Positions 1 to 38,405 of a stretch of DNA of 50,774 nt are shown here, one piece after another (the first letter of the stretch is position 1; the number at the start of each line of letters is the position of its first letter). Position numbers and translations under genes: made by a program. Where the stretch lies: the NCBI GenBank assembly GCA_029553475.1, contig JAKPKV010000186.1:71808-122581 (forward strand), written 5' to 3'. The notes under the pieces are model-generated. The model was not told where the DNA came from, did no database searches, and saw only the letters and a list, made by a program, of their open reading frames with translations. The stretch comes from Armatimonadota bacterium. Its GTDB lineage: Bacteria > Armatimonadota > Hebobacteria > CAIYQO01.

Positions 1-164
1 CGTTCCTCGCCGACCATCCCGCGTGGTCGCTGGACGTGGAGGGCCTCACGCACCAAACCCTCCCGGCGGACGCCCGCGATCCCGCCGGCTACGTGCGCCT
101 GCTCCCCCAGCGCCACGGCACCGACGGCTTCTTCGCCGCCCGCCTGAAAAAAGCCGGCGCATAA
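1..164 (+). CDS. rsmB: 16S rRNA (cytosine-C5) methyltransferase RsmB, C-terminal end only
   Basis: This is the last 53 codons of a gene that begins before the window; it reads in frame from base 3 to the TAA at 162-164. The tail has the pattern typical of RsmB/NOP2/Sun RNA methyltransferases: a G-Y-x-R-L-L-P strand followed by H-G-T-D-G-F-F-A-A-R-L and a basic last helix. In this family that segment closes the Rossmann-fold domain that methylates C5 of cytosine 967 of 16S rRNA using S-adenosylmethionine. The catalytic cysteines lie upstream and cannot be checked. RsmB versus another NOL1/NOP2/Sun member is a family-level inference from the tail alone. Confidence 0.72.
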   Translation, partial: FLADHPAWSLDVEGLTHQTLPADARDPAGYVRLLPQRHGTDGFFAARLKKAGA

Positions 165-177
165 CACACGGTCTGTC

Positions 178-186
178 TGGTATACT
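178..186 (+). promoter_or_regulatory. Extended -10 promoter for the small membrane protein and rarA
   Basis: TGG followed directly by TATACT forms an extended -10 (TGnTATAMT-like) just after the rsmB stop. No convincing -35 box is present at 16-18 nt spacing. A start near 193 would leave a short leader carrying the GGAGGA at 195-200 that serves the ATG at 208. The placement is inferred from sequence only. Confidence 0.4.
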
Positions 187-207
187 GAGAAAGCGGAGGA
201 TCTGACA

Positions 208-513
208 ATGGGACTCTGGGGAACGCTGCTCAACGCGCTGCAATTCGCGCCGCTGGTGCTGGAAGTCACCCGCGCGGTGGGAGGCAAGCAGGCGCCGCCG
301 GACGATGAGGCGTCGCCGCGGGAGCTGCACGCGCTGCGGCAGGAAAGCGAGGCGCGCTTCGCGGCGCTGGCCACCGAACAGCACCACCTCCGCGAGCGCC
401 TGCGCCACGCCGAGCTGGCCATCCTCTCCCTGCGCGCCTGGGTGATGATCGGCATCCCGGCGCTGGGCATCCTCGTCATCATCCTGATGATTCTGCTGCT
501 GTCCAGAGGGTAA
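208..513 (+). CDS. Small coiled-coil protein with C-terminal membrane anchor (unknown function)
   Basis: A 101-residue protein of unknown function. The N-terminus is mildly hydrophobic (residues 3-25). Residues about 35-75 are rich in Glu, Arg, Leu and Ala with heptad-like spacing and look like a coiled coil. Residues about 78-98 form one strongly hydrophobic helix ending in S-R-G, so the protein is probably tail-anchored. The start is well supported by GGAGGA at 195-200, seven nt before the ATG. The rarA start lies 9 nt beyond its stop and the rarA ribosome-binding purines overlap its last codons, so the two are probably co-translated. I do not recognise the family; a role with RarA is only suggested by linkage. 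Confidence 0.7.
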   Translation: MGLWGTLLNALQFAPLVLEVTRAVGGKQAPPDDEASPRELHALRQESEARFAALATEQHHLRERLRHAELAILSLRAWVMIGIPALGILVIILMILLLSRG

Positions 514-522
514 AAGAGCGGT

Positions 523-1872
523 ATGGACCTCTTCGACACCACCCTGCCCGCCTCCGGGCAGCCGGCGGCCCGCGCGCCGCTGGCGGCGCGCATGCGCCCG
601 CGCACGCTGGATGAGTTCGTCGGGCAGGAGGAGGCGCTGGGGCCGGGAAAACCGCTGCGCCGGGCCATCGAGGCGGACGAGCTGACGTCGGTGATCCTCT
701 GGGGGCCGCCCGGCTGCGGAAAAACCACCCTCGCCTCGCTCATCGCCAACCATACCGACGCCCACTTTGAGCCGTTCAGCGCCGTCACCTCCGGCGTGCC
801 CGAGCTGCGCAAGATCATCAAAGAGGCGCGCGACCGGCGCAAGTTCTACGGCACGCGCACCATCCTCTTCGTGGACGAAATCCACCGCTTCAACAAGGCG
901 CAGCAGGACGCCTTCCTCCCGGTGGTGGAGGACGGCACCATCATCCTCATCGGCGCGACCACGGAGAACCCGTATTTCGAGATCAACGCCCCGCTGCTCT
1001 CGCGCTCGCGGCTCGTCACGCTGCAGCAGTTGACGCCCGAGGGGATCGCGGCCATCCTCGCCCGGACGCTCGCCGATGAGGAGCGCGGGCTGGCGCATTA
1101 CCAGCTCACCCTCACCGAGGAGGCGCGGGCGCATATCATCACCTTCTGCGACGGCGACGCCCGCAAGGCGCTGAACGCGCTGGAAGAGGCGGCGAAGCTG
1201 ACCCCGAAGAAAGGGGCCATCACGCTGGAGATCGCCGAGCAGGCGGTGCAGCGGCGCGCCATGCGCTATGACAAGGATGGCGACCAGCACTACGACATCA
1301 TCTCCGCCTTCATCAAATCCCTGCGCGGCAGCGACCCGGACGCCGCGCTCTACTGGATGGCGCGCATGATCGAAGCCGGCGAAGACGCGCGCTTCATCGC
1401 CCGCCGCGTGGTGGTGCACGCGTCGGAAGACGTCGGCATGGCCGACCCGATGGCGCTGCAGGTGGCGGTGGCCGCCGCCCACGCGGTGGAGTTCGTCGGC
1501 TTCCCCGAAGCGCGCATCAACCTCGCCCAGGCGGTCATCTACGTCGCCACCGCGCCGAAGAGTAACGCCGTCGTCACGGCCATTGATCGCGCCCAGGATG
1601 ACGTGCGCCGGGGTAAACTCGCCCCCGTCCCCCTCCACCTGCGCGACACCAGCTACCGCGGCGCCAAACAGCTCGGCCACGGCACGGGCTACCAATATCC
1701 TCACGACCACCCCGGCCACCACGTCGCGCAGGCGTACCTGCCCGACGGCACGAAAAGCCAGCCCTACTACGAACCGTCCGACCAGGGCTACGAGAAGCGG
1801 ATTCAGGAGCGGATGCGGGCGTGGGGCCATCTTCGCGATAGCGAAGACGGCACAGAGACAGCGCAGCCGTAA
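523..1872 (+). CDS. rarA: Replication-associated recombination protein A (RarA/MgsA), AAA+ ATPase
   Basis: A 449-residue AAA+ ATPase of the RarA/MgsA/WRNIP1 family, which acts at stalled replication forks and resembles clamp-loader subunits. The N-terminus has the family's M-R-P-R-T-L-D-E-F-V-G-Q box near residues 24-35. Walker A is GPPGCGKTT at 61-69 and Walker B is D118-E119 within FVDEIHRF, followed by N-K-A-Q-Q-D-A. Sensor 1 reads IGATTENP. The C-terminal half (from about residue 250) matches the MgsA tetramerisation region, with Y-D-K-D-G-D-x-H-Y-D and A-R-R-x-V-V-x-A-S-E-D-V-G. Length is normal. Purines at 505-510 in the end of the preceding gene give its ribosome-binding site. A high-confidence family call. 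Confidence 0.95.
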   Translation: MDLFDTTLPASGQPAARAPLAARMRPRTLDEFVGQEEALGPGKPLRRAIEADELTSVILWGPPGCGKTTLASLIANHTDAHFEPFSAVTSGVPELRKIIKEARDRRKFYGTRTILFVDEIHRFNKAQQDAFLPVVEDGTIILIGATTENPYFEINAPLLSRSRLVTLQQLTPEGIAAILARTLADEERGLAHYQLTLTEEARAHIITFCDGDARKALNALEEAAKLTPKKGAITLEIAEQAVQRRAMRYDKDGDQHYDIISAFIKSLRGSDPDAALYWMARMIEAGEDARFIARRVVVHASEDVGMADPMALQVAVAAAHAVEFVGFPEARINLAQAVIYVATAPKSNAVVTAIDRAQDDVRRGKLAPVPLHLRDTSYRGAKQLGHGTGYQYPHDHPGHHVAQAYLPDGTKSQPYYEPSDQGYEKRIQERMRAWGHLRDSEDGTETAQP

Positions 1873-1914
1873 TGTTTTCGCCGGTTCGGATGACGTATAT
1901 GCGGGAGGATCGTC

Positions 1915-28421: not shown

Positions 28422-28901
28422 ACGCCATCGCCGGCAATGGTCAGCTTTTTTCATCGTCTGGATCTGCACCCGCGTCGGCGGTGATACAACGGTGGATCTC
28501 GTCAACAGAGAGCGGTTGCTACTCCTGCTTACCTTCATCATTCCTTTGGAGATGCGGATGCTGAAAAATGCGTATCCGCTGTACGAAGCTGCTATCTGCC
28601 TGTCCTGTGTCACGTATCGCCCACAGCTTCATGCCTTCGTTACAATCAGGTTACTCATCGGCAGGATTCTCACTGTTTGCGAAGAACCTCTTCCGATATC
28701 CAGTTGAATATGGTTGTGGAAAGGACGCCGCCGTCATCATCGCCCACCTCTTCGCCGTCCGTCTGCGACGCCCCCATTCCCCGGAGATTCCTCACTTGGG
28801 CCACGATCTCGGAAGCTGGACTGTTCACGACACGGTCGTAACGCGCCTACGACCGTGATGGCGTTCCGCCAGTCATCAACCGACCATAAGGACACAACCT
28901 A
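28422..28901. other. 480-nt intergenic region at the left edge of the defence island
   Basis: No convincing gene is seen. Short open frames exist but none has both a good start and protein-like composition. The region is visibly richer in A+T than the sugar operon and marks the composition change. A GATATCCAG stretch at 28694 and TTACAATCAGG at 28644 are weak promoter-like words, and I could not place a reliable promoter. AAGGA about 9 nt before 28902 serves the next gene. Confidence 0.5.
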
Positions 28902-31900
28902 ATGGATGAGCAGCAACTGACCATCGCCGCTATGTTCAACATCGAACTGTTATCAGACCGCACCGTCAATTACGCCATGCAGCAGAATGATGTGCCGGTC
29001 ATCAAGATGCTCCGGATCAACAATGCGTCTGCCGATCCCATGCGTGATCTCTGCGTCCGGATCACGGCGGAGCCGGCGTTCGCCGCCGTGAAAGAGTTGC
29101 CGCTGACAGCTATCGGTGCCGGCGAAACGTATTCCCTCGGCAGCGTGGACCTGCAGTTATCCCACGATTACCTCGCCACCTTAACCGAGCGTGTCGTCGG
29201 TGCCTTGCACATTGAATTGCTGAAAGATGGGGAGTGCCTGGCGCACCATAGCCAGCGTATCGAGGTGTTGGCGTATGATGAATGGAACGGCCTGCAATCC
29301 CTCCCCGAGATCATCGCGGCATTTGTGACCCCCAACCATCCGGCTGTCGAGGCCATCCTCTCCGATGCCGCGACACTCCTGGGGCAATGGACTGGCGACT
29401 CCTCGCTGTCTGGTTATCAGTCCCATGATCGCCAACGCGTGGCGACGATGGTGGACGCGATCTTTGTCACGCTCCAGCAACGCCAGCTTCGGTACTGCAA
29501 TCCGCCGGCGAGTTTTGAAGACAGCGGACAGAAGCTGCGCCTTCCCGATCGCCTCCTCGACACCCGGTTGGGGACATGCCTCGATCTTGCCGTCTTCATG
29601 GCCTCGTGCTTGGAGCAGGCCGGCTTATCTCCGCTCATCATCTTCACGGAAGGACATGCGTTTGCCGGGGTCTGGCTGGACGATGATTGTTTCCCCGATA
29701 TCGCCACGGATGATATGCTCCGCGTGCGCAAACGCACCGAGGTCGGCGAAATCTGCGTGTTCGAAACGACCCTGTTGACCAGCGATACCCCTGTGCCGTT
29801 TGACCAGGCGGTCAAAGAAGGATCCCGGCATCTGCACTACCCGGAAAAATTTCGCTGCGCCATTGATATTTGCCGGTCACGGAAGAGCCAGATCCGACCA
29901 TTGCCCATTCGTGCCGCTGACCAGGGCCTCAGGCCGGTGCAGGCGCCGGCCGCCACCTTTGACCCCCTGGCGGCACCATCCACGATTGCCATTCCCGGGC
30001 TGGGTATCGCAACGGCAGCGGGTGACCAAGCGGTGATCGAAACCCCTGAAACGCGTTTAGAAGGCTGGAAACGCAAGCTGCTCGACCTGTCGCTTCGTAA
30101 CCGGTTGATAAATTTTCGCCACTCGAAAAAGACCTTGCCGATCCTCTGTCCCGACCTCGGCTCTCTCGAAGATGCACTCGCGGTCGGAAGTGGCTTCAAG
30201 ATCTTCGGCCCGCTCCCGAGACTGTGGGAGGCTGATGATCGCAGTGACGACGTGCATCGCCAGCGTACCGGCGAAGACGCATACGCCGAGCAGCTCCGCG
30301 ATGAATTTCATGCCAAGCGCCTGCATGCCGATGTGCCGGAAGGCGAGGTCAACCGTCGTCTCCTGGAAATCTATCGCGAAGCCAAAACGGTCATGGAAGA
30401 GAGCGGCGCGAATACCCTCTATCTCGCCCTGGGATTCCTCGCCTGGTATGAAACCAAATCGTCTGCGCAGCCGCGTCGGGCGCCGATTATCATGATCCCC
30501 ATGGAGATCGACCGGCATTCGGTGCAGGAGGGATTCAGCATTAAGCAAGGTGACGACGAGCCGATGGTGAATGTCACGCTGCTCGAAATGCTGGCGAAAG
30601 ATTTCGGCCTCCACATCCCCAATATGGACCCAATTCCTGCCGATGAGAAGGGCATTGATGTCCAGGGTATCCTGCATGCCTTTCGGCAGGCCATTGTCGC
30701 CATTGACCGTTGGGAGGTGATCGAGGACGCCTGTATCGGCCACTTCTCCTTCACCAAATTCCTGATGTGGCGCGACCTGGAAGTGCGCGCGGACGATCTG
30801 CAGCGCAATAAAGTCGTGTCCCATCTCATCAATACGCCGAATCGGCCGTATGCGGATGACGGCGGCTTCCCGGATCGTGACCGGTTAGATGAGACGCATA
30901 ATCCAGCCGAGACATTTTGCCCTTTGAGCTCGGATTCCTCACAATTGGCTGCCGTCTATGCAGCGGCGCTCGGGAAGAGTTTCGTGCTGCATGGTCCGCC
31001 AGGAACGGGAAAATCACAGACGATCGTCAATCTCATCGCCCATACCTTGGCAACAGGAAAAACCGTCCTTTTCGTTTCGGAGAAACGGGCGGCGCTTGAG
31101 GTTGTTCATAAGCGTTTGGTGGAGTGCGGTCTTGATCCCTTCTGTCTCGAATTGCACTCGAACAAGAGCCATAAATTGGAAGTGCTCCAACAGCTTGGCG
31201 CGGCACTCGATTATAGTGGGGCGCATTCATCAGCCGAATGGCTCCATGAGGCCCAACGATTAGCGGCGGCACGCCGCGAGCTGAATGCCTATGTCGCAGC
31301 CTTGCATGAAGAACGCGACATCGGGATGAGCGTCTACCAGGGGTTCACGCGGTTAATCGGGCTGCGCGACATCACACGCATTCATTTTGATCTGCTTGGG
31401 TCACGCAAAGTCGATCGTCTCACTTTTGATCGGATGCGCGATGCGGTTGGGCGCCTGCACATGGCCGCAGAGGCGATCGTCCATCCCACGCGCAACGTCT
31501 GGGCGACCACCCAATACACCGAATGGACGCCAACACTTGAACGGGACATCCTGGCATGTCTTCGGCGTGTTGACGCGTGTTGTCGTGCGCTTGCTGATGC
31601 CGCACTGCCGGCTGCCCCGATGCTTGGCCTGGATAGCGGTGACTGGTCGCAGGAGACCTTCGCTCTTGCCAGCCGGGCGGCATCAATCGTGCTAGAACGC
31701 CTCCCAGCGATGACACCGGAACTGCTGCGCACCCCTGATTGGACCGGGCTGCGTGGCACCATTGCAACCTGGGTCAAGGCTGGCCGCAGACGCGATCAGA
31801 TCCGCGTGGATGTATTCCAGCGGTTCTCGGCCTCGCTGCTGTCACTGGATATTGAGGCCATGACCGCCAAAATCACCCGTGCGCAGGCAAGCTGGCTCAC

Positions 31901-34900
31901 CCCCGAACTCATCGGCCACCGTGCTGCTACTGCACCGGAAGCGGGGGGCGCATCGCTCGATTGGATCGGTTGGGTGGAAACCGAGGTCTTCTCGGCAATG
32001 CAGCGTCTGCAGCAATGTAGCCAACGCCTGATCACTGATGCGCAACAGGTTGCGCCCTACCTGGGGATCACGGTCAATCAACAGCCGCTGGCCGCCTATC
32101 GCTTCCTCGATACACTGTCCGGCGTGCTGGTCGAGGTGCCGGAGGCATTGCCCACAAACCTGCTGACGGAAGCCGATTGGGAAACAGTGCGCCTTACCAT
32201 CCGTGAGTGGATTGATCATGGCCGGCGACGAGCGAGTCTGCGCAAGACCTTATTCGCACGATACACCGAGCAGCTACTAACACTAAATCTCGATGAGCTT
32301 CAGCAAAAACTGACTATAGCCAACGGCAGTTGGGTCGTCGCGCGGGCATTCGGGCATTGGTCGGTGAAGCGTGTCGTGAAGCGTGTCAGTCGCGTCATCC
32401 CCCTGGTATCTATTGATGAGATCGGCGCTGACCTGAATGCTGCCATCGCCCTCCGCGCGGAAGAGCAATACTTCGCGCATCTCCAGGGGCAAGCCACGGC
32501 CTTCTTGGGGCTCTATTGGAAAGATCATGAGACGGATTGGGACGCCGTCGAGCGTCTCCTTGACTGGTGTGGATCTCTGCGCACGATGATCGCGGTCGCG
32601 GTGAATTCGGATTCGCAAAAAGCCACCGAGTTGCGTGCGCGCCTCGCCGCCTTCCTGCGCGAAAACCGTGACCGGTGTGTCCCCGCGGGCGATATCGGTC
32701 AGTTATTCCTCGCGCTACGGGACGGATTGACGGAGTTCAACCAATCCTACCAGTCTTTGGCATCGTTGCTGCCGCTTGATCTCGCCACCGTCTGGGGCGA
32801 TGACAAGATCGCGAAACCTGACACGATCATCACCTGCCTGCAGGGCTGGATGGAGCAGATCGCCGCGCTGTCACAGCTACGGTCTACCGCAAACCTCGCG
32901 CACCTGACGCCGCTCGCGCACCTGCAACAGGACTTGGCACTTGGACAAGAGTTGAAAACACTCATCGAGACCATCGCCGCGTGTCGAGATCGCGCCACGG
33001 CGGTTCTCGAAGACTATTGGCAGGACGGTGAGGCGGATTGGGGCCATATTGATGAATTGCTGGATCATGCGGACCATCTGCGAGTACTTGCACGGGAACT
33101 CGCGGGGTCGCAGCCAGAGCGGTCCCTAGCCATCCTGCAGACGTGGGCGACATTCATCGAGGGGGGACACGACCAGCTTGCGCAACATGGCCGCATCGGG
33201 AGCGCGCTCACGCAGTTCGTGCAATCTCATGCTGATGTGGATGACGCGCTAATCGCGCTCCATCGCGCCTTGATGCTGCCCACACAGATGTGGGGGGATC
33301 CGGCGACGCCTGACTTCCTCAACCGCGTGCAGGGGCATACCCAACGCTGGACTGATCATCTGGGGAGCTTCAAGGCGTGGTGTTATTGGTACGACGCCCG
33401 TCGAGACGTGATAGACCTGGGGCTGCAAGCTCTCGTCTCTGCTTATGAAGCGGGCAGCGTCACGCCGAATGACTTCGTGCGGACGTTTGAACGGGGCTTC
33501 TATCAAGAGTGGGTGGAAACCACCATCGCCCGTGTTCCTGTGCTGCGTTCGTTCTTCAGTCGCGAGTTCGAGCGAAAGATTCAGCAGTTCCGGGAAATGG
33601 ATGACCGCTATCTCAAATTGACGCGCGCTGAAATCGCGGCGCGTATCGCCGCCAAGATGCCGAGAAGTACCGGCATCGAAACGCCGACATCGGAAATGGG
33701 GATCCTGCGGCGACAAACACGGCTGCAGCGGCGTCACCTTCCAGTCCGATCATTGTTCCAGAAGATCCCGAATCTGCTCCCCCGCCTCAAGCCGTGCCTG
33801 CTGATGAGTCCCATCTCTGTCGCGCAGTATTTGGACCCTGCCCATCCCCCGTTCGATCTGGTGGTCTTCGATGAAGCGTCACAGATCCCCGTCTGGGATG
33901 CCATTGGCGCCATTGCACGCGGCTCGGAAGCCATCATCGTCGGCGACCCCAAGCAATTGCCGCCCACCAGCTTCTTCGCGCGCGTTGACGGCGACGACGA
34001 GGATGAGGTGGATGATGATACGGTTAAAGATCTCCAGAGTATCCTTGACGATTGTCTCGCGGCCCAGCTCCCCCCAATGCATCTGCGCTGGCACTACCGA
34101 AGCCGGCATGAGAGCCTCATCACGTTCAGCAACTTCCACTACTACGAGAATAACCTGCTGACGTTCCCTTCACCGCACCAGCAGCCCGCCGTCACATTAC
34201 GGCATGTGGATGGCCTGTATGACAAAGGCAAATCCCGCACCAACCGCGCGGAAGCGGAAGCCGTGGTACACGAGATCATTACACGGTTGGAAGACCCCAG
34301 CCGTTCTCATGATAGCATTGGCGTCGTCACGTTCAATTTGGCCCAACAACGCCTCATTGAAGATTTGCTCGAAGAAGCCCGTCTCCAACACCCCGAGATC
34401 GAGCGATACTTCGCTGGCAGTGCAGACGATATTGAGCCGGTCTTCGTGAAGAATCTGGAAAACGTGCAAGGGGATGAGCGGGATGTGATCCTATTCTCAA
34501 TCTGTTATGGCCCAGATGCCCAGGGGCGCGTGTCGCTGAACTTCGGTCCGCTCAATCGTGACGGCGGAGAGCGCCGGCTGAACGTCGCGGTGACGCGCGC
34601 TCGCAAAGAGGCGCTGGTCTTCTCGACGGTGCGCGCAGAACAGATTGACCTCACGAAAACACGGTCGCGAGGCGTCGCAGATCTTAAGACTTTCCTGGAA
34701 TACGCCGAACGCGGGCCTATCGCAATCGCTGCGCGGCGTCAATGCGATCCTGAAGCCGAATGCGAGTCCCCATTTGAACAAGAGGTCTATGATGCGCTCT
34801 GTTCAAAAGGCTACAAAGTGCATCCGCAGGTGGGCTGTTCGGGATACCGCATCGATTTGGCCGTGGTTGATCCGGACGAGCCGGGACGATACCTACTCGG

Positions 34901-35786
34901 CATCGAGTGCGATGGCGCAAACTATCACCGCGCAAAGACCGCCCGTGACCGCGACCGTCTCCGCGAATCCGTCCTGCGTGACCTGGGCTGGCAGCTTCAC
35001 CGGATCTGGTCCACGGATTGGTGGGAGAAACCGAAGCACGAGGTTGAGCGAATGGAGATGGCGATTGATGAAGCGCGGAAGCGGCGCACCACCTTGGCGT
35101 CCATGCCCACACAACGGCCGCAGCGCGTTGCCGCACAACCAATGCCCGAAGCCCCAGTATTGCCCGCTCCCACCAGGGTGGTCTCGCAACCCCGGCCGCA
35201 AGAGCAGGTTCGCGCCATTCCAGTCTATGAGACATACCCGGTGCAGCAGACGCTCGGGTCATTAGATGATTTCTATCAGTTTCACTCGGACGACCTGATT
35301 AAACGTATCCTTGAGAGCGTTGTGACCCATGAAGGCCCCGTGAGTTTCAACATTGCGGCACGTCGCGTCGCCGCCCATTGGGGCATCAAGCGTGTCACCG
35401 ACAATATCGCATCTCGGATGCGGCTTCTCTTCTCGACTGGTGAAATCAACGTGAATGAGCACCGCGCGGACGAAGTTGTTTTCCTTTGGCCACCGGACAT
35501 GACACCGGAGGGCTACACCGCTTTTCGGGTGCCTGGGAATGATCCTCACTCACGGCGAGATGCCAGCGATCTCCCACCGGAAGAGATCGCAAACGCCGCA
35601 CTCTACGTTCTCCAGCAGCAGGTGAGCTTGCCGATGGAGGATCTGGTCCGCGAAACCGCCCGGCTCTTCGGCTTTCAACGGACCGGCATCAATGTCGAGA
35701 AGCTCATTCGCGCCGGCGTCGAGCGACTCTTCGCACGTGGGAAGGCTATCGTTCAGGATGGCATGGTTGTCCACCAGCATCGGTGA
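28902..35786 (+). CDS. Giant DUF4011 superfamily-1 helicase with Vsr-like nuclease and DUF3320 domains
   Basis: A 2294-residue multidomain protein. N-terminal part: a beta-rich region to about 120, then a transglutaminase-like core with C226 (G-T-C-L-D-L-A) and H252 (G-H-A-F-A-G-V-W-L-D-D). The DUF4011 signature K-L-L-D-L-S-L-R-N-R-L-I-N-F starts at residue 392. Walker A G-P-P-G-T-G-K-S is at 698-705. A long helical insertion with internal duplications lies at about 900-1530. Walker B D1657-E1658 (F-D-E-A-S-Q) is followed by G-D-P-K-Q-L-P-P, then V-Q-G-D-E-R-D-V and V-A-V-T-R-A-R. A DUF559/Vsr-like nuclease domain begins at 1958 (F-E-Q-E-V-Y; I-E-C-D-G-A-N-Y-H with D2004; R-D-R-D-R-L-R). DUF3320 ends the protein. 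Related architectures are linked to phage defence. Base use differs from flanking genes. Confidence 0.9.
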   Translation: MDEQQLTIAAMFNIELLSDRTVNYAMQQNDVPVIKMLRINNASADPMRDLCVRITAEPAFAAVKELPLTAIGAGETYSLGSVDLQLSHDYLATLTERVVGALHIELLKDGECLAHHSQRIEVLAYDEWNGLQSLPEIIAAFVTPNHPAVEAILSDAATLLGQWTGDSSLSGYQSHDRQRVATMVDAIFVTLQQRQLRYCNPPASFEDSGQKLRLPDRLLDTRLGTCLDLAVFMASCLEQAGLSPLIIFTEGHAFAGVWLDDDCFPDIATDDMLRVRKRTEVGEICVFETTLLTSDTPVPFDQAVKEGSRHLHYPEKFRCAIDICRSRKSQIRPLPIRAADQGLRPVQAPAATFDPLAAPSTIAIPGLGIATAAGDQAVIETPETRLEGWKRKLLDLSLRNRLINFRHSKKTLPILCPDLGSLEDALAVGSGFKIFGPLPRLWEADDRSDDVHRQRTGEDAYAEQLRDEFHAKRLHADVPEGEVNRRLLEIYREAKTVMEESGANTLYLALGFLAWYETKSSAQPRRAPIIMIPMEIDRHSVQEGFSIKQGDDEPMVNVTLLEMLAKDFGLHIPNMDPIPADEKGIDVQGILHAFRQAIVAIDRWEVIEDACIGHFSFTKFLMWRDLEVRADDLQRNKVVSHLINTPNRPYADDGGFPDRDRLDETHNPAETFCPLSSDSSQLAAVYAAALGKSFVLHGPPGTGKSQTIVNLIAHTLATGKTVLFVSEKRAALEVVHKRLVECGLDPFCLELHSNKSHKLEVLQQLGAALDYSGAHSSAEWLHEAQRLAAARRELNAYVAALHEERDIGMSVYQGFTRLIGLRDITRIHFDLLGSRKVDRLTFDRMRDAVGRLHMAAEAIVHPTRNVWATTQYTEWTPTLERDILACLRRVDACCRALADAALPAAPMLGLDSGDWSQETFALASRAASIVLERLPAMTPELLRTPDWTGLRGTIATWVKAGRRRDQIRVDVFQRFSASLLSLDIEAMTAKITRAQASWLTPELIGHRAATAPEAGGASLDWIGWVETEVFSAMQRLQQCSQRLITDAQQVAPYLGITVNQQPLAAYRFLDTLSGVLVEVPEALPTNLLTEADWETVRLTIREWIDHGRRRASLRKTLFARYTEQLLTLNLDELQQKLTIANGSWVVARAFGHWSVKRVVKRVSRVIPLVSIDEIGADLNAAIALRAEEQYFAHLQGQATAFLGLYWKDHETDWDAVERLLDWCGSLRTMIAVAVNSDSQKATELRARLAAFLRENRDRCVPAGDIGQLFLALRDGLTEFNQSYQSLASLLPLDLATVWGDDKIAKPDTIITCLQGWMEQIAALSQLRSTANLAHLTPLAHLQQDLALGQELKTLIETIAACRDRATAVLEDYWQDGEADWGHIDELLDHADHLRVLARELAGSQPERSLAILQTWATFIEGGHDQLAQHGRIGSALTQFVQSHADVDDALIALHRALMLPTQMWGDPATPDFLNRVQGHTQRWTDHLGSFKAWCYWYDARRDVIDLGLQALVSAYEAGSVTPNDFVRTFERGFYQEWVETTIARVPVLRSFFSREFERKIQQFREMDDRYLKLTRAEIAARIAAKMPRSTGIETPTSEMGILRRQTRLQRRHLPVRSLFQKIPNLLPRLKPCLLMSPISVAQYLDPAHPPFDLVVFDEASQIPVWDAIGAIARGSEAIIVGDPKQLPPTSFFARVDGDDEDEVDDDTVKDLQSILDDCLAAQLPPMHLRWHYRSRHESLITFSNFHYYENNLLTFPSPHQQPAVTLRHVDGLYDKGKSRTNRAEAEAVVHEIITRLEDPSRSHDSIGVVTFNLAQQRLIEDLLEEARLQHPEIERYFAGSADDIEPVFVKNLENVQGDERDVILFSICYGPDAQGRVSLNFGPLNRDGGERRLNVAVTRARKEALVFSTVRAEQIDLTKTRSRGVADLKTFLEYAERGPIAIAARRQCDPEAECESPFEQEVYDALCSKGYKVHPQVGCSGYRIDLAVVDPDEPGRYLLGIECDGANYHRAKTARDRDRLRESVLRDLGWQLHRIWSTDWWEKPKHEVERMEMAIDEARKRRTTLASMPTQRPQRVAAQPMPEAPVLPAPTRVVSQPRPQEQVRAIPVYETYPVQQTLGSLDDFYQFHSDDLIKRILESVVTHEGPVSFNIAARRVAAHWGIKRVTDNIASRMRLLFSTGEINVNEHRADEVVFLWPPDMTPEGYTAFRVPGNDPHSRRDASDLPPEEIANAALYVLQQQVSLPMEDLVRETARLFGFQRTGINVEKLIRAGVERLFARGKAIVQDGMVVHQHR

Positions 35787-35798
35787 TGTGCAGCCGTA

Positions 35799-35875
35799 AA
35801 TATTGTTCCACACGGAGGGCTTCCCGATGCTAATTATCGCAGGAAGCCTTCCGCGTGTTAGTCAATATTGTTCCA
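35799..35875. repeat. Imperfect hairpin framed by 12-bp direct repeats between convergent defence genes
   Basis: AATATTGTTCCA occurs at 35799-35810 and again at 35864-35875. Between them ACACGGAGGGCTTCC pairs imperfectly with GGAAGCCTTCCGCGTGT. An inverted partial copy (TTGGAATATTG) follows near 35895, and a TTTTT run lies at 35878-35882. It may serve as a terminator for the helicase gene, or be a small insertion with target-like repeats. Confidence 0.55.
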
Positions 35876-35963
35876 TGCTTTTTAGAGCGGTGGGTTGGAA
35901 TATTGCGGTGGCCGGGGGTATCCTCGACATCGTCGCATAAAGTGTTGTCTGTGGCAGCACACC

Positions 35964-37913
35964 TCACGCTGGTATGGCAGGCACTGCTACAATCTCACGT
36001 GCGACATACTGCTTGAAGGCATTCAGGTCGGTGAAGTACCGGAATCCCGCCTGATTGGCGGCCTGCTCGGTGTCTTCACCCTCATCAATCAATAGTGCGA
36101 CAGGTTGGCTGTAGCCCTCCTGCAGCCCATTGGGCCATGCCAGATCGAGGGTGGCCAGCGGGTTGCCTGTGTCGGGTGCTACCAGTTCATATAGGAACTC
36201 GCCTTCCGGCAAGCCCCGCTCCGCCAGCCAGGCGTTGCACTCAATCAACACGTTCATCTCATCGTCGCTACTCACGCCGCCGGGGGTCGCCGCGCCCTGT
36301 GGTACAAGGAGGGTCGGCTCCGTGACGTCCGGGATGGTGCCGCCGAGCAAGCTGTCCAGCAGCTCATGGGTCGCGGCGGCCAGCAGGCGCCGGCGTTCAG
36401 CCAGGAAATCACGGTAGCGTTCGACCTTCCACAACGTCGGGTCCATCGGAATCCAGGTGGATTCCAGCGCGCCAGGATGCTGGGCGGCGAAGTCAGCCAG
36501 GTAGATCTCCGGCAGGCGGTCGGACACCAGCAGGTTCGTTTCCTGCGTCAGGAAAGTGAAGTTTGCCAGGGCATTGACTTCACCGCGCGAATAGCCATGC
36601 TTGTACAGTACCGCCTTCGGGAAGATATGGTGCAGCTCAAGCCTACTCAATCGGCCGAGGAGATGATGGGACAGTTCGGCGCCGGTTCCCCAGTCGCGCG
36701 CATGCGCGGCGCGGGTCAGCATATAGAGGACCGGATAGAAACGGGCGGCACGGCTGTAGCCCTGGAAGTCATCCGGCAGGATACGCAGGTCGCCGCGATT
36801 TTGCCGAAGCTGACCGATGAGGCGGTCGAGCGCGCCATTCGGGTCTTCAATATGCCGTAGGTCCTGGCTCAACATGCTCTCCGTCGAACCGGAATAACGG
36901 CCCCAGAGGAACGTGTGGACATACCAGTAGAGGAGTTTATCGCGCTCGCGGGCATCGGTGAGACGCCCGTCCCGCATGGTGATATACCGCGCCAGCAGCG
37001 GGAACGCGCCACGGCTGCTCAACACCAAATCATGATCTAGGCCCAATCGCGCGGCCATGATATTCAGCAACCGATCCACCGCATCCTCCGCCTGCGTGAG
37101 GCCGCGCTGGAAGGTCGGTGTATCAACATGTTCCAACGCATCGAAAAATGCCGAGCCGGTGACCACCGTGGTGATATTGCGCAGCAGCCACTCCAACCGG
37201 AAGTGGAACCCGGCCTGCCGCCATTTCGCCAGCCGTTTTTTCATCTCCGAGCGGGCTTCCGGCCACTCGGCGCATATTTTCGCGAGCGCCAGATCACCCT
37301 TGGACAGCTTGGTGCCGCCGCTGTTCACCTTATTGAAAATGCTCACCACGATGCCGACGGTCTTGTCCTCGCCGCTCACCTCCTCGATATGGAGATCAAT
37401 GTCTTTGATATGGGTGATGGCGGTAAGGCGATTGATATAGGTGGTCACGTTCGGCAGCAACTCCGGCACGGCCATCAGCCGCTGGATGAATTCGCCGATG
37501 TCGCGCTGCATCAGGTCGGTCACATTCACCCACAGCAGGTTATCTTTCATCTTCATCGGTGCGTAGAACTCAAACACCTCATCATCCAGATGGAAGTGCA
37601 GGCCGGTAAACGCGTCCGTGTTGCCGTCGAAAAAACGCGGCGCTTTGCCGCGAATGATGCCGTAAAGGGAGGTGATGCGCTGCTGGCCGTCCAGCAGCAG
37701 CTTCACGGTTCCTGGCTGCAGCACCGCATCGCCGCGCGCGCTGGCATTTTCCGTCTTCGTCAGCCATACCAGCAGGCTGCCGACCGGGTACTGCCGGTAC
37801 AGCGAATCCATCAGGCCGCGCACCTGGTCGCGATTCCAAACGTAGCCGCGCTGGAACTCGGGCAGCGCCAGCGCCCCGTTATCGATCTGGTCAAGAATCG
37901 TCGAGATCTTCAT
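35964..37913 (-). CDS. DUF262/DUF1524 protein (GmrSD-type, putative type IV restriction or defence)
   Basis: A 649-residue protein combining DUF262, a ParB/Srx-like nucleotide-using domain, with a DUF1524 HNH-type nuclease-like domain, as in the GmrSD enzyme that cuts modified phage DNA. DUF262 marks are L-P-E-F-Q-R-G-Y-V-W-x-x-x-Q near residue 18 and L-D-G-Q-Q-R-I-T at about 74-81. The HNH-like motif is L-H-H-I-F-P-K at H428-H429, followed by N-A-L-A-N-F-T-F-L. A C-terminal extension of about 90 residues after 560 (L-A-T-L-D-L-A-W-P-N-G-L and V-A-L-L-I-D-E-G) resembles a degenerate nuclease-like fold; I do not recognise it. GAGAAGA lies 7 nt before the ATG. Convergent with the DUF4011 helicase, and similarly less G+C-rich. 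Confidence 0.88.
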   Translation of the reverse strand: MKISTILDQIDNGALALPEFQRGYVWNRDQVRGLMDSLYRQYPVGSLLVWLTKTENASARGDAVLQPGTVKLLLDGQQRITSLYGIIRGKAPRFFDGNTDAFTGLHFHLDDEVFEFYAPMKMKDNLLWVNVTDLMQRDIGEFIQRLMAVPELLPNVTTYINRLTAITHIKDIDLHIEEVSGEDKTVGIVVSIFNKVNSGGTKLSKGDLALAKICAEWPEARSEMKKRLAKWRQAGFHFRLEWLLRNITTVVTGSAFFDALEHVDTPTFQRGLTQAEDAVDRLLNIMAARLGLDHDLVLSSRGAFPLLARYITMRDGRLTDARERDKLLYWYVHTFLWGRYSGSTESMLSQDLRHIEDPNGALDRLIGQLRQNRGDLRILPDDFQGYSRAARFYPVLYMLTRAAHARDWGTGAELSHHLLGRLSRLELHHIFPKAVLYKHGYSRGEVNALANFTFLTQETNLLVSDRLPEIYLADFAAQHPGALESTWIPMDPTLWKVERYRDFLAERRRLLAAATHELLDSLLGGTIPDVTEPTLLVPQGAATPGGVSSDDEMNVLIECNAWLAERGLPEGEFLYELVAPDTGNPLATLDLAWPNGLQEGYSQPVALLIDEGEDTEQAANQAGFRYFTDLNAFKQYVAREIVAVPAIPA

Positions 37914-38328
37914 CTGTATCTTCTCATTACAGAGGCGGACGTTCTGCTGTCATCGCCGGCAGGCTCGCGGAGTACCGTCTTCGCCATAGCAGATGGATGT
38001 CCGCGTCGGTAAATGATGCCGGCCTGCGCTTGCTCGGCAGGTCAAAGGAATACATTCCATTTATTTGGTTCTCGTCCCTGCACTCGCCCGGACACACCCT
38101 GAAGCTATGAGTCGCTCCATCAGCTTTCGCCTCAAGGTCGCTGCAATCAGGCATCCCGATACATCGCTCGCGCGAGTGCATGCGTATTCTTATCCACTTG
38201 GCGGACGATCCGCTCAGTTGGTCGTCCGCGGCGGCATTCGACCTGCTGATTCGGTCACTTCGGTCCAAGACACACTGGCGTGGACGCTAGATGCAGGGCC
38301 GGTCAAGCGAATGTCACACAAGGGGCAG
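37914..38328. other. 415-nt gap between the DUF262 gene and tRNA-Thr
   Basis: No gene is supported. A 113-codon minus-strand frame (37927-38268) and a 109-codon plus-strand frame that runs into the tRNA are both Arg/Ser-rich and lack ribosome-binding sites. No copy of the tRNA 3' end was found that would mark an attachment site. The interval may be decayed island DNA. Confidence 0.5.
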
Positions 38329-38405
38329 TGGAGCCTCCTGTCGGATTCGAACCGACGACCTGCTGATTACAAGTCAGCTGCTCTGGCCAACTGAGCTAAG
38401 GAGGC
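38329..38405 (-). tRNA. tRNA-Thr (anticodon UGU)
   Basis: A complete cloverleaf reads on the minus strand. The acceptor stem GCCTCCT/AGGAGGC is perfect (7 bp). The D stem is GCTC/GAGC, the anticodon stem GCTGA/TCAGC with loop CTTGTAA (anticodon TGT), and the T stem GTCGG/CCGAC with loop TTCGAAT. The discriminator is T and a CCA end is encoded at 38331-38329. Its own promoter lies just upstream. tRNA 3' ends are common integration sites, and the defence genes begin on that side. Confidence 0.97.

Follow-up and report, generated by a model that had tools for sequence, protein, structure and literature searches.

The question raised by this locus is whether two long convergent genes lying beside a tRNA gene of an Armatimonadota bacterium form one anti-phage system or are independent genes sharing a site. 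In the window, i.e., the whole stretch of DNA analyzed (50,774 nucleotides), these genes had been described as a candidate defense island whose pairing was not known to be a named system. The reading that we consider best, with a probability of roughly 83%, is that they encode two independent single-gene anti-phage proteins, probably acquired horizontally and occupying a single accessory slot flanked by a glycoside-hydrolase gene on one side and by tRNA-Thr on the other. The layout given by the initial annotation, with two convergent long open reading frames, one of them for a 2294-residue helicase, in a block ending at the 3′ side of a tRNA gene, is borne out by the list of open reading frames and by the position and strand of tRNA-Thr(TGT) (Table 1). 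The two genes, referred to as P1 and P2, face each other with their 3′ ends across a gap of 177 bp, are the only recognizable genes in the block according to the ORF list and Pfam, and have full-length reading frames with conserved catalytic motifs. The flanking genes encode GH2, GH1, and GH42 proteins, a phosphorylase, a uracil-DNA glycosylase, DHDPS, and an amino-acid kinase; those tested are metabolic, repair, or uncharacterized genes, and none is of a defense type.

Table 1. Coordinates of the genes, edges, protein domains, and comparison loci. Positions without a prefix are those of the window; an L handle marks a locus elsewhere.
Feature	Position	Strand	Details
P1	28902-35786	+	2294 aa, ATG start; ORF list
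P2	35964-37913	-	649 aa, ATG start; ORF list
tRNA-Thr(TGT)	38329-38405	-	ARAGORN, Rfam
Left edge, intergenic	28422-28901		480 bp, GH2 gene to P1; without a copy of the tRNA 3′ end
Right edge, intergenic	37914-38328		415 bp, P2 start to tRNA 3′ end
Transglutaminase-like region	P1 residues ~140-330		N-terminal part
DUF4011	P1 residues 392-564		Pfam 9e-50
SF1 helicase	P1 residues 677-800 and 1625-1908		Pfam AAA_11, AAA_12; helical insert between
MTES_1575 Vsr-type REase	P1 residues 1958-2055		Pfam 9e-40
DUF3320 winged-helix region	P1 residues 2122-2170		Pfam 1e-11
GmrSD_N (DUF262)	P2, DGQQR at residues 75-79		Pfam 3e-29
HNH	P2 residues 425-460		Invariant residues, predicted fold
PD-(D/E)xK-like C-terminal domain	P2 residues 548-640 (35964-36270)		Predicted fold
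G001 copies of tRNA-Thr 3′ end	L128:4989-5033, L129:55-99, L129:5511-5555, L130:6748-6792, L131:9702-9746, L132:7497-7541
G001 tyrosine integrase	L128:3730-4995		Against a copy of the tRNA-Thr 3′ end
Deltaproteobacterial MAG locus	L005:4149-15250		HEC-05 (DUF262) gene and divergent ProA-type gene
Klebsiella pKPC2_085104	L103:10698-20106		Hhe and two DUF262 genes
Nostoc plasmid pNPM2	L106:1-14319		P2 relative

On sequence comparison, P1 is a ProA-type anti-phage protein by family. It scores 2335.1 bits against the NCBIfam equivalog "anti-phage protein ProA" (NF058533; cut-off 1500) and 1436 bits against PDC-S37, a PADLOC label for a candidate defense protein. The Hhe model (NF042953) yields 901.5 bits, below its curated cut-off of 2000, and because P1 falls short there while passing the ProA cut-off, Hhe is regarded as a sister family of that of P1. 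Pfam agrees with the DUF4011, helicase, and Vsr-like nuclease recognized at first; the view that the system is unnamed, by contrast, fails for P1, whose family already carries a name in both NCBIfam (ProA) and PADLOC (PDC-S37), although a literature search in a limited collection found no paper on ProA. In an alignment with 11 relatives, Walker A (residues 698–705), DEASQ (1657), QLPP, VQGDERD (1855), and RRLNVA are invariant, as are D1985, C2003, D2004, and G2005 of the nuclease, with E2002 conserved at a level of at least 90%, and the Cys and His of the transglutaminase-like region (C226 and H252) are kept in most of these relatives. P1 has no Pfam HEPN match, and an R-x5-H at the start of DUF4011, considered as a HEPN motif (Rx4-6H), was dropped since it is not conserved in the 11-sequence alignment. 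Furthermore, the helical module between the two helicase halves is internally duplicated (residues 936–1006 vs. 1081–1151 at 37% identity, and 1192–1307 vs. 1359–1471 at 31% identity), owing to which P1 is longer than its relatives of ~1990 aa.

P2 is, as judged by sequence and predicted fold, a type IV enzyme of the BrxU/GmrSD family. Of the DUF262/DUF1524 composition originally proposed, the DUF262 part stands with a Pfam match, whereas the DUF1524 Pfam model is silent even at E 0.1, and the HNH nuclease is instead recognized from its residues and fold. P2 also matches the HEC-05 model at 145 bits. Across 25 relatives, D75–R79 (DGQQR) does not vary, and neither do the HNH residues H428, H429, N451, and N460. 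A profile built from P2 and five close relatives (52–65% identical to P2) matches BrxU over residues 3–513 with E = 8e-22. The AlphaFold2 model, obtained with 25 sequences at a pLDDT of 86 and replacing a poor model from six sequences (pLDDT 56), aligns with BrxU over residues 1–520 at Z 21.6, followed by SspE and DndI, and its residues 391–499 match HNH folds. Past this part, residues 548–640 form a separate predicted domain resembling Can2, NucS/EndoMS, and Hjc; the scores are weak (Z ~5), although several different entries of the PD-(D/E)xK fold agree. No Pfam model matches this domain, which is present in close relatives of P2 and absent from the more distant ones aligned. Its LDLAWPNGLQ segment is conserved in the close relatives with no ExK following, on account of which the domain may be catalytically dead. 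The initial placement of each gene in an anti-phage-type family therefore agrees with the family assignments, ProA/PDC-S37 for P1 and BrxU/GmrSD for P2, and homology suggests a defense role for both.

Whether the two genes belong together was addressed with P1-family loci and their flanks collected by a scan of the phylum and by scans of genomes and plasmids, among which ~27 loci were judged, the window itself and one duplicate being left out. A P2-like gene lies near a P1-family gene in one of these ~27 loci, that of a deltaproteobacterial MAG, where it shares 29% identity with P2 and is ~4 kb away. That locus comprises HsdM, HsdS, a PD-Lambda-3_B-like gene, HEC-05 (DUF262), and a divergent ProA-type gene; the P2-like gene adjoins the type I R-M genes, and the arrangement differs from that of P1 and P2. 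None of the five close P2 homologues in the phylum is located near a P1 relative, and three of their genomes also hold a P1 relative on a different contig. Elsewhere, a P2 relative with 63% identity on Nostoc plasmid pNPM2 adjoins drmA and drmC of DISARM and also lies beside a PD-(D/E)xK nuclease gene, another plasmid-borne relative adjoins helicases and an N6 methylase, and others are located among other genes. In an all-against-all comparison of neighbors, no conserved partner was found for P1 or P2.

The initial annotation suggested that P1 and P2 are one cooperating two-gene defense system. Their adjacency and their shared lower G+C content fit such a system, as do the ProA-type gene ~4 kb from an HEC-05 gene in the MAG locus and the two DUF262 genes adjoining Hhe on a Klebsiella plasmid, but the single pairing among ~27 other loci involves a gene only distantly related to P2 and a different gene order, the DUF262 genes on the Klebsiella plasmid show no detectable similarity to P2, the convergent orientation excludes an operon, and the three genomes with relatives of both genes keep them on different contigs. 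We consider cooperation very improbable, and we give equally little credence to its specific version, according to which this lineage has a combined system without a name, with the ProA helicase-nuclease attacking phage DNA regardless of modification and the GmrSD-type enzyme, equipped with the additional PD-(D/E)xK-like domain, attacking modified DNA. The count of co-localization thus gives no recurrence, the first of the outcomes that the initial annotation had listed as speaking against its proposal, and a recurring, unnamed pair is not supported, the close relatives of P2 lying beside other genes. Since neither gene has a conserved partner or a recurrent pairing, P1 and P2 are best seen as stand-alone; together they are ordinary small defense cargo and not a new two-gene system.

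As a separate observation, the Klebsiella plasmid pKPC2_085104 carries its two DUF262 genes in tandem directly upstream of Hhe and near type I R-M genes. They were rejected as a recurrence of the pair, showing no detectable similarity to P2 at E 0.01, and the Hhe–DUF262 neighborhood on plasmids is perhaps worth counting.

Composition and distribution suggest that both genes were probably acquired horizontally. Windows across the stretch give a G+C content of 0.58–0.62 over ~28–38 kb vs. mostly 0.64–0.72 outside, in agreement with the early remark that both genes are less G+C-rich than their neighbors. Codon usage divides the two: P1 (GC3 0.68, codon bias 0.365) is clearly foreign, whereas P2 (GC3 0.77, codon bias 0.249) is only mildly atypical, compared with GC3 of 0.82–0.91 in most neighboring ORFs and codon bias of 0.14–0.26 in most long ones, a list in which a few ORFs are possibly wrong-frame calls. 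Because P2 departs only mildly, the two genes may differ in age of arrival. Among 14 genomes of the class, no other one was found to have a full-length relative of P1 or P2, and relatives of both occur on plasmids.

These same data bear on the possibility that P1 and P2 serve host DNA metabolism, i.e., repair, replication conflict, or chromosome maintenance, and not phage defense. In P. aeruginosa, a defense hotspot is bordered by a DUF4011 gene that belongs to the conserved core (PMC10250203), the uracil-DNA glycosylase gene is the next one beyond the tRNA, and ProA-like genes often have metabolic neighbors, so that guilt by association lends ProA no support. A housekeeping role is nevertheless unlikely, given that the other genomes of the class examined lack full-length relatives of both proteins, P1 is foreign in composition, relatives are carried by plasmids, and both proteins match models of anti-phage families.

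For the probable acquisition of the block, tRNA-Thr(TGT) is a plausible integration site. Within the block there is no integrase gene according to the ORF list and Pfam, and neither the window nor the genome contains a second copy of the tRNA-Thr 3′ end that could form an att direct repeat. The flanking genes are not syntenic in two close genomes (G001 and G002), which offer no clean empty site: close orthologues of the GH2 gene are lacking in both, and G001 has a homologue of the uracil-DNA glycosylase with no tRNA in the stretch around it. In G001, a member of the same family, the 3′ 45–47 bp of tRNA-Thr(TGT) are present in several copies (Table 1), most of which have similar flanks ending in AATAATGCCCT. 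One copy, at a contig end, lies directly against a tyrosine integrase gene, with an S24-type repressor nearby. The copies resemble either an integration site at tRNA-Thr or a family of repeats that arose from such a site, and because the G001 integrase adjoins the 3′ end of this tRNA, its use as an integration site in the family is credible. The block may accordingly be a remnant of an insertion at tRNA-Thr.

How the two proteins might act is suggested by analogy with their families. P1 would use its SF1 helicase and the C-terminal winged-helix (DUF3320) region to engage DNA that is invading the cell or being replicated, and its Vsr-type nuclease would cut the engaged DNA without a partner methylase. 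The mode of GmrSD and BrxU comprises NTP hydrolysis, sensing of modified cytosine, and cutting (summarized in PMC10952713). By analogy, the DUF262 domain of P2 would bind and hydrolyze NTP at DGQQR, the protein would sense modified cytosine, and the HNH domain would cut DNA with modified bases, while the apparently degenerate C-terminal domain may bind DNA or play a regulatory role. Together, P1 and P2 would then cover unmodified as well as modified phage DNA, and the two effects could simply add up.

With this locus, Armatimonadota apparently gains a ProA of full length and a type IV enzyme that resembles BrxU and carries an additional domain of nuclease fold. Both are encoded in a small accessory slot beside a tRNA gene that apparently serves as an integration site in a relative. 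Furthermore, a pairing seen by eye is found not to be a recurring system, and a false lead is thereby spared.

Among known systems, BrxU/GmrSD (PDB 7p9k and 7p9m) combines DUF262, including DGQQR, with HNH, the part aligned to residues 1–520 of P2. BrxU shares 22% identity with P2, in which the PD-(D/E)xK-like domain is an addition past the aligned part, and P2 differs from BrxU in that BREX genes are absent from its surroundings. The same two-domain fold (Z 8–12) is found in SspE and DndI, which are DUF262/DUF1524 proteins that sense phosphorothioate; they are less similar to P2 than BrxU is, and the neighboring genes tested include none for ssp or dnd modification. For P1, the MTES_1575-type giants combine a transglutaminase-like region, SF1 helicase, Vsr REase, and winged-helix domain without modification genes, the same arrangement as in P1. 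They additionally carry HEPN, which was not found in P1 by Pfam and motif conservation, and these HEPN-bearing giants have been proposed to provide modification-independent defense (Anantharaman et al., 2013; PMC3710099). Hhe shares with P1 the core of DUF4011, SF1 helicase, and Vsr-type nuclease, its match starting at P1 residue 480 with the N-terminal region outside. The full architecture of DUF4011, SF1 helicase, Vsr-type REase, and DUF3320 is common to P1 and ProA (NF058533), whose model has 1903 positions vs. 2294 aa in P1, and P1 is distinguished from it by the extra duplicated helical module.
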